64,000 nt of DNA from Oscillospiraceae bacterium (GTDB lineage Bacteria > Bacillota > Clostridia > Saccharofermentanales > Fastidiosipilaceae): positions 1 to 64,000 of the forward strand of contig JAQWFM010000004.1 of NCBI GenBank assembly GCA_028704415.1. Direction: 5' to 3'. How positions within the stretch are numbered: position 1 is the stretch's first letter; every line of letters begins with the position of its first letter. A model generated the notes under the pieces. It was not told the origin of the DNA. It was given only the letters and a program-made list of their open reading frames with translations, and ran no database searches. The translations under genes and the position numbers were made by a program. This document shows, piece by piece, positions 42,545-44,697 of the stretch.

Positions 42545-42880
42545 TCAGCGCACCAGGCCATAGGGCCAGTCCATCAGGCCTCCAAAACTGACCGCATGGT
42601 CATAGCCCAGCTTATGCAGCACCCGGACCGCCTGTACGGCCCGGGCTCCGCTGAGACAATAAACCAGGATCTCAGCCTGCCGGTCCGGCAACTCTGCCGC
42701 CGCCCGGGCCTCCAGCTGATAGAGCGGGATCAGGCGTGCATGCTTAATATGGCCACTCTGGTATTCTGAGCCTTCCCGCACATCCAGAATAATCGCCTGG
42801 GGATTAGCCTTGATCCGCTCCTGGGCTTCAGCCGCCGTGAGTGTCTGCGATCCGGTCATGGTTTTAAAAAAATTGAACAT
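42545..42880 (-). CDS. Rhodanese-like domain protein
   Basis: IILDVREGSEYQSGHIKHARLIPL, active-site loop VYCLSGARAVQAVRVLHKLGYDHAVSFGGLMDWP. Confidence 0.92.
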   Translation of the reverse strand: MFNFFKTMTGSQTLTAAEAQERIKANPQAIILDVREGSEYQSGHIKHARLIPLYQLEARAAAELPDRQAEILVYCLSGARAVQAVRVLHKLGYDHAVSFGGLMDWPYGLVR

Positions 42881-43305
42881 AGTCTTACCCCTCATTTTTC
42901 TTTATGCCGCCAGCTGCACCCAGTTGACGGGGCTTAGGTGATCCCGGACGGGATCGGCGGATAGGCCGGCGGTGTAAGCGCCTTATATTATTTTATTCTA
43001 ATGTAGTAATATAAAAATTACCTCAGGATCTGTCAAGTCCACAGGATATAAAAAAGCAAACTTACCGTAAAATCCTGGTCCGCCAAGTAATTCAGGCGCC
43101 CTCCCCTCCTGGGTTGGCCGCCTTAGGGCAGCTATCCGCTCAGCCAAACCGCCAGGCGCAGGCGCCCTGACCCGTCTGGCAGGGTGATCTTTGCGGCTGC
43201 GCTGGCAAAGGCCGCCGGGCCTGCCCTCTTTACAGCAGCCGTCTTTGTCTATATGCTGTACAAAAAGATCTGCGCCAAGCAGTTTTAAAAGGATGTAAAC
43301 GTGTC

Positions 43306-43605
43306 ATGAATCAGGATGCCGATTATCTAGCCGGACTTTTAAAGGTACTGGCCAACGCCAACCGCCTGCAGTTGTTGTGCGGGCTCAGCCATCAGGAACT
43401 CAATGTCAGTCAGCTGGGCCTGTTGCTGCCTGAGCTGTCTCAGTCCGCTTTATCTCAGCATCTGGCTATTCTGAAAAAGCACGGCGTACTGACGTCCCGG
43501 AAAGACGGGCTGAAGGTCTATTACCAGATTGCCGACGACCGGATAGAAAAAGTAATCCGCGTATTGCAGGAAAATTATTGTCCGGATTCCCAGCTGCTGC
43601 TCTGA
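43306..43605 (+). CDS. ArsR-family regulator, candidate SqrR/BigR/YgaV-type thiol sensor
   Basis: LLKVLANANRLQLLCGLSHQELNVSQLGLLLPELSQSALSQHLAILKKHGVLTSRKDGLKVYYQI...ENYCP; Cys25 and Cys92. Confidence 0.88.
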   Translation: MNQDADYLAGLLKVLANANRLQLLCGLSHQELNVSQLGLLLPELSQSALSQHLAILKKHGVLTSRKDGLKVYYQIADDRIEKVIRVLQENYCPDSQLLL

Positions 43606-43773
43606 AGCTTAATCCGGAGAGCCCGCATTTCCGGCCGTCACTTCAGCGCGCGCTTACTTATCAGCAGATAAAATTTCATCATTATATTTTATTATTTCAT
43701 GTGGTTATACTACAAGCAGACCGCAGTCGCAGCGGCTGCGTTTTTTTATGTCCTATGAAAGAAGGCGCTCACA

Positions 43774-44697
43774 ATGCTGCATGATCTTATTATTATCGGA
43801 GCCGGTCCCGCCGGGGCCAGCGCGGCTATTTATGCCGCCAGCCGGGGCTTAGCGGTGCTTTTATTAGAACAGCAAGCCGTAGGCGGGCTGATTGGTCAGG
43901 TATCGACTGTAACGCACTACGCGGCTATAGAGACCCATGAAACCGGCGCCAGTTTTGCCACACGGCTGCAAGCGCAATTAGTGGCTGCCGGGGTTCAGGT
44001 TTGTCTGGAGCCGGTCCGGCAAGTTAGCTTGGCCGCTCCGCTCAAAACCGTTCAAACCACAGCCAACACTTATCAGGCGCGCGCAGTCATCCTGGCTAAC
44101 GGCAGCACGGCCAATCGTCTGGCCATCCCTGGCGCAGCTACGCTGGACGGTCATGGCATGAATCTGAACGCCGCCCGTGAGGGCCAGGCTTACGCCGGAC
44201 ACAACTTATATGTGGTGGGCGGCGCGGATGGCGCCATAAAAGAGGCGCTCTACCTGGCTCAGTTTGCGCATAAACTGGTCGTCATCCATTTTGAAGATCA
44301 GCTAAGCGCAATCCCGCAATTTACCCGGCCTTTGCTGCAGTTGCCCAATCTGGAACTGCGGCTGCATACGCGCCTCACCGCAGTGGAAGGCGAAACTGCC
44401 CTTTCCCGCCTGCATCTGACAGATGAGCATAGTGGGCAAAGCCAGTGGCGCGATGACCCCGGCGCCGGTGTGTTTGTGTACACTGGTTCCACGCCTAATA
44501 CTGCTTTGTATCCTGAGCTCAAGCTAGATAAAGGCTACATCCCGGTCAATGAAAAGATGGAAACGGCGCTGCCCGGGGTATATGCAGCCGGCGATATCCG
44601 GGTCAAGCAAGTCCGCCAAGTCGCAACTGCAGTAGCCGACGGCGCCATTGCGGGCATTAACGCGGCGGCATTTATCCAGTCAGGCGCTCCCGCCTGA
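43774..44697 (+). CDS. Thioredoxin reductase-like FAD/NAD(P) oxidoreductase lacking CxxC
   Basis: DLIIIGAGPAGASAAIYAASRGL, LYVVGGADGAIKEALYLAQFA, ALPGVYAAGDIRVKQVRQVATAVADGAIAGINAAAFI; no CxxC between the domains. Confidence 0.85.
   Translation: MLHDLIIIGAGPAGASAAIYAASRGLAVLLLEQQAVGGLIGQVSTVTHYAAIETHETGASFATRLQAQLVAAGVQVCLEPVRQVSLAAPLKTVQTTANTYQARAVILANGSTANRLAIPGAATLDGHGMNLNAAREGQAYAGHNLYVVGGADGAIKEALYLAQFAHKLVVIHFEDQLSAIPQFTRPLLQLPNLELRLHTRLTAVEGETALSRLHLTDEHSGQSQWRDDPGAGVFVYTGSTPNTALYPELKLDKGYIPVNEKMETALPGVYAAGDIRVKQVRQVATAVADGAIAGINAAAFIQSGAPA

Follow-up and report, generated by a model that had tools for sequence, protein, structure and literature searches.

HlyU of Vibrio, SqrR of Rhodobacter and YgaV of E. 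coli are persulfide-responsive winged-helix repressors of the ArsR family that share one pair of cysteines, and in E. coli the ygaV gene has a rhodanese gene, ygaP, as its neighbor. A second described system, the YeiE-YeiH sulfite resistance locus of Enterobacteriaceae, consists of divergent genes for a LysR-type regulator and the YeiH transporter; in Salmonella, sulfite causes YeiE to activate yeiH, which confers sulfite resistance (PMC12880088). The locus described here has features of both. It lies in the window (the whole stretch of 64,000 nucleotides that was analysed) and comprises an arsR gene, a rhodanese gene and a gene for a flavoprotein resembling thioredoxin reductase (TrxR), which the original prediction had joined into a single sulfide/persulfide response module, 42545 to 44697, with the TrxR-like enzyme as its unusual effector. 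Judged from its sequence, the locus is probably two neighboring reactive-sulfur units and not one ArsR module. Its features are as follows.

42545 to 42880, minus strand: single-domain rhodanese with a CLSGAR loop (Pfam Rhodanese, 57 bits; ribosome-binding site GAGGGG before 42880)
42984 to 43013, no strand: predicted ArsR operator, TATATTATTTTATTCTAATGTAGTAATATA (matrix rank 1 in the window; palindrome in both species; exact arms unique in the genome)
43008 to 43036, minus strand: rhodanese promoter, TTGACA-17-TATATT (11 of 12 consensus matches; kept in the sister species)
43229 to 43257, plus strand: possible arsR promoter, TTTACA-17-TATGCT (9 of 12 consensus matches, weak; kept in the sister species)
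43306 to 43605, plus strand: arsR, a dithiol ArsR of the SqrR/HlyU/YgaV type with the pair C25 and C92 (Pfam and NCBIfam, PDB relatives, alignment)
43644 to 43711, plus strand: promoter element of the TrxR-like gene, 68 bp, with a -10 TATACT at 43706 to 43711 and TTATCAGCAGATAA at 43658 to 43671; common to LysR/YeiH-linked homologues
43722 to 43748, plus strand: terminator-like hairpin with a T run, at which the arsR transcript may end (1 match found, 1.0 expected from shuffles)
43774 to 44697, plus strand: TrxR-like flavoprotein that lacks CxxC and whose NADPH motifs are altered (profile matches, clade alignment, model and fold search)

The arsR product has 99 amino acids and exactly two cysteines, C25 (in RLQLLCGL) and C92 (in ENYCP), 67 residues apart. 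Scores of 30.3 bits against Pfam HTH_5 (cut-off 22) and 75.3 against NCBIfam NF033788 (cut-off 55) place it in the winged-helix family. As had been predicted, the two cysteines are a pair of the sensing type: they align with the sensing pairs of HlyU, SqrR and E. coli YgaV (C31/C98, K-12 gene) at the alpha2 and alpha5 positions, and by our own arithmetic the chance that two randomly placed cysteines in 99 residues land on exactly this pair is about 1 in 4,850. HlyU is the nearest characterized relative (45% identity; blastp 1e-24), the similarity including a nearly identical recognition helix (LSQSALSQHLA), and among PDB entries phmmer matched HlyU (3jth) at 4.7e-19 and SqrR (13ct; 37% identity) at 3e-13. 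Alignment to SqrR, BigR and YgaV had been proposed as the check; it bore out the cysteine match for SqrR and YgaV, whereas BigR was compared by its NCBIfam profile and a PDB match rather than residue by residue, and the protein falls below the BigR equivalog cut-off (NF040642; 62.3 against 155 bits) even though the model aligns end to end. The signal in a tree of ArsR proteins was too low to place it. It is 33-45% identical to HlyU, SqrR and YgaV and is a clostridial newcomer among the known dithiol repressors of this type.

Close relatives of this ArsR are sparsely distributed. The sister species, Oscillospiraceae bacterium HV4-5-C5C (L004 = L029), has an orthologue that is 97% identical; within the family of the window genome a close orthologue was found only there, and elsewhere in the order the best is 46% identical. 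A match at 1e-13 was found in 20 of 391 Clostridia. Of 16 close clostridial relatives, 14 retain both C25 and C92; more distant ArsR paralogues from that order and class have neither. The clostridial relatives (41-57% identity) have three main gene settings: an operon for a ferredoxin and an Fe-S membrane protein (L102, L104, L108, L109, L111, L114, L116, L117, L072), a rhodanese beside arsR (L107, L110, L112), and a CoA-disulfide reductase-rhodanese fusion (L113). The five dithiol relatives at L102, L107, L108, L110 and L112 mostly keep the cysteine pair and have the same 30-bp operator before their target operon; they differ from the window locus in targets and gene order, and none adjoins a TrxR-like gene.

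Several of these settings are of interest in themselves. In the operon that recurs in L102, L104, L108, L109, L111 and L072, the dithiol ArsR is encoded together with a 2x[4Fe-4S] ferredoxin and an Fe-S membrane protein, and a 30-bp palindrome precedes the genes. At L113 (873-2815) the dithiol arsR gene lies immediately 5' of the fusion gene; on this short contig the 30-bp palindrome was not found. Genome G456 carries arsR in two identical copies (L103:4289-4579 and L104:3696-3986) amid transposase-like genes, and one of them retains only a remnant of its operon.

The same two cysteines could serve to sense another oxidant or ligand, such as H2O2, heme or a soft metal. A disulfide has been reported for XfBigR and heme binding for YgaV and SqrR (PMC9774250), but HlyU responds to persulfide while H2O2 and GSSG have no such effect on it (PMC10509353), the predicted target here is a rhodanese gene, and relatives lie next to rhodaneses or the CoA-disulfide reductase-rhodanese fusion; we regard such a sensor as quite improbable. 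A persulfide-type ArsR, the reading that we prefer, is considered below together with its operator.

The rhodanese is divergent from arsR and single-domain, as predicted; an alternative start at 42895 is possible, and the ribosome-binding site fits 42880. Between the two genes the best 30-bp palindrome is that at 42984-43013, of the form TATATTA-N16-TAATATA, with 22 of 30 self-complementary positions here and likewise in the sister species; the two 7-bp arms occur together exactly only once in the genome, and the rhodanese -10 lies inside the palindrome. The Fe-S operons of ArsR relatives are preceded by palindromes of equal length, and a matrix built from four such operons of other Clostridia scores 30.3 bits at 42984, rank 1 in the 64 kb (next best 12.0), a score reached by none of 300 permuted matrices; in the sister species it scores 32.7 bits. 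Further strong sites were found in L106, L107, L110, L111, L112, L114, L116, L117 and L072, and in L107, L110 and L112 the palindrome stands 10-24 bp before the rhodanese that adjoins arsR. An operator 5' of a rhodanese, here and in those three loci, agrees with the sulfurtransferase or sulfur-transport targets of the dithiol ArsR class. The window operator fits the ATTC-N8-GAAT rule of SqrR and YgaV only in part (seven of eight positions, six of eight in the sister species), and the rhodanese is divergent rather than co-directional as in ygaV-ygaP.

Sites of this type were found neither 5' of arsR, where the best matrix score is -8.1 bits, nor 5' of the TrxR-like gene, where it is 9.7 against 30.3 bits. 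Of the two intergenic regions, ArsR binding is thus predicted for 42881-43305 only. An operator at the rhodanese and none before arsR or the TrxR-like gene lead us to infer that ArsR would repress the rhodanese and not the flavoprotein. Two further candidates were discarded: an ArsR-type site before the TrxR-like gene proposed from direct similarity (18 of 30 matches, equalled in 22 of 300 shuffles), and a wider ArsR regulon, since palindrome arms with two mismatches are no commoner than background (12 against 14 in the control).

As the original prediction had it, the flavoprotein gene follows arsR; the gap is 168 bp, and the upstream region of the flavoprotein gene resembles that of another gene group. 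In other Clostridia the TrxR-like gene adjoins a divergent LysR gene or a LysR-YeiH pair in 11 loci (L006, L008, L009, L010, L118, L120, L132, L133, L135, L136 and L138) and lies near yeiH in six (L007, L118, L120, L135, L136 and L138); it is thus accompanied by the gene pair of the enterobacterial locus, which in E. coli is without a TrxR-like gene. The linked LysR proteins match a selenium-associated LysR model best and YeiE well, all below cut-off (111-152 against 480 bits for the YeiE model NF040889), and are only 25-29% identical to YeiE. When the promoters are aligned ungapped on the -10, they have in common TTAT at about -48 and, further down, a block of the ATAATTTTA type. A matrix of 16 LysR/YeiH-type promoters, all from Clostridia outside this genus, gives 43644-43711, in register with the -10, the top score among 127,866 positions (24.1 against 7.8 bits); by the same matrix the yeiH promoter ranks first in its own locus both in the window genome (9.9 bits) and in the sister species (11.9 bits). 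Exact copies of the 14-mer TTATCAGCWGATWA are confined to the TrxR-like and yeiH promoters in both genomes, the pattern having been derived from those same two sites.

This element is A+T-rich, and 5 of 200 permuted matrices also select the region, at lower scores. Its signal is mostly in columns 31-50; columns 0-30 (the first 31, uninformative) alone rank the site 473rd. Direct similarity between the TrxR-like and yeiH promoters is moderate, with 13 of 2000 shuffles as good (76 of 2000 in the sister species). TTATC-N4-GATAA was rejected as a signal before the TrxR-like genes of other genera, as it has no exact occurrence outside this genus.

In the window genome LysR and YeiH are both present, at separate places: yeiH is on a different contig from the TrxR-like gene, and an orthologue of the linked LysR proteins (48% and 44% identical to those of L138 and L120) is encoded elsewhere, adjoining metNIQ-type genes; the promoter element was not found at this orthologue's own locus. 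In both species the LysR gene stands beside a methionine-type ABC transporter (MetI/MetQ-like; L152:2320-3207 and L180:4365-5822), and in the sister species it also adjoins a flavodoxin gene, whose product is a possible redox partner. The promoter comparison suggests that the flavoprotein is probably the effector of a separate, LysR-YeiH-like regulon adjoining the ArsR-rhodanese unit.

The hairpin at 43722-43748 keeps its stem in the sister species, and its folding energy is not exceptional. The TrxR-like -10 is just 5' of it, such that the hairpin would occupy about +4 to +30 of the TrxR-like leader. A functional hairpin in that leader was considered and dropped, as there is no folding-energy excess over shuffles.

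These results bear directly on the claim of one persulfide-response module, in which arsR and the TrxR-like gene would be co-transcribed or both controlled by ArsR and the flavoprotein would reduce polysulfide or the oxidized sensor. The gene order is identical in the sister species, all three genes have links to sulfur, and the short gap between arsR and the TrxR-like gene would permit read-through, so that co-transcription is possible; set against this, neither gene has an ArsR-type operator, the flavoprotein gene has its own conserved promoter element, the gene order is known from two species only, and TrxR-like homologues elsewhere are without an ArsR neighbor. We consider a single module improbable. 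What stands of the claim is the predicted ArsR control of the rhodanese, through a conserved and well-supported operator at its -10; the TrxR-like enzyme as effector of the ArsR module is not supported, its promoter element being common to LysR/YeiH-linked homologues and to the genome's own yeiH. The absence of an ArsR-type site before the TrxR-like gene, together with the LysR/YeiH-type element there, argues for two adjacent units. Operator and promoter comparisons found no shared control of the two; as both concern reactive sulfur, their adjacency may be meaningful.

The predicted enzyme is indeed unusual in sequence. It is 53-82% identical to the members of a clade that is rare among Clostridia (4 of 391 genomes; 10 of 345 in one order) and about 27-33% identical to thioredoxin reductases and AhpF. 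It has the fold and the FAD motifs of low-Mr TrxB (29-33% identity), from which it differs in having NAA for CxxC, GGADGA for GGGxxA and HFED for HRRD. CxxC is absent in all 21 clade members examined, which have no invariant cysteine, and its former site reads NAA in nearly all; across the clade GGADGAxKE replaces GGGxxAxE, and the HRR of HRRDxxRA reads HFE or HVE. The protein falls below the NCBIfam TrxR cut-off (TIGR01292; 228.6 against 343.45 bits), its structure model has the TrxR fold with uncertain domain orientation, and the genome has a normal TrxR gene at another locus (L121). With CxxC and the NADPH motifs, as defined in PMC5627308, both lost, thioredoxin reduction via CxxC and normal NADPH binding are not expected. 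E. coli AhpF, an NADH enzyme, likewise has Phe for the first Arg of HRR, and the TrxR-like protein may therefore use NADH. At L014 (404-3364) a homologue adjoins a gene whose product matches BaiCD, a bile acid Fe-S flavoenzyme, above cut-off.

A TrxR fold without CxxC is also that of the known TrxR-like ferredoxin/flavodoxin reductases (FNR; BcFNR1/FNR2 and YumC type; PMC10294844), and the flavodoxin gene beside the sister LysR gene would suit an ordinary member of this group. The protein is clearly nearer TrxR (168.8 bits) than any FNR of the fold (best 63.5 bits), and its whole clade has altered glycine and arginine motifs for NAD(P)H; an ordinary FNR thus seems unlikely to us, if a serious contender. 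We favor a TrxR-like FAD protein that probably hands electrons to a non-thiol acceptor.

Taken together, a persulfide-type ArsR acting on the rhodanese, and a flavoprotein under a LysR regulator that also controls yeiH, make up an explanation that we hold to be fairly likely on sequence grounds. In the scheme that we infer for the persulfide chemistry, the repression, the LysR control and the flavoprotein reaction, reduced ArsR would bind the palindrome and block the rhodanese promoter; persulfide or polysulfide would crosslink C25 to C92, ArsR would leave the operator, and the derepressed rhodanese would be made and would move or drain sulfane sulfur. The TrxR-like promoter would answer to the LysR-type regulator encoded elsewhere, which would also control yeiH, and the FAD protein, unable to reduce thioredoxin by the CxxC route, would pass electrons to its acceptor.

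The ArsR belongs to a known kind; the new part is the flavoprotein with its LysR/YeiH-type promoter. In the set of papers searched, nothing linked YeiH, thioredoxin reductase and Clostridia, and no enzyme partner of LysR/YeiH genes appeared. We tentatively propose, at somewhat less than even confidence, that the protein is the first of a family of its own, made up of thiol-less flavoproteins with the TrxR fold and changed NADPH motifs and serving in reactive-sulfur (sulfite) stress in Clostridia under a LysR-type element shared with YeiH, here beside a persulfide-sensor ArsR-rhodanese pair. The dithiol ArsR of persulfide-sensor type, with a definable 30-bp operator, is extended into anaerobic Clostridia; more surprising than the ArsR is a flavoenzyme clade tied to LysR/YeiH sulfite-resistance genes by gene order and a shared promoter element. 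If the proposal is true, the LysR-type promoter element would have stayed intact even where, as here, the genes for regulator, transporter and flavoprotein are dispersed, and the ArsR-rhodanese pair and the flavoprotein would form a two-signal sulfur island.
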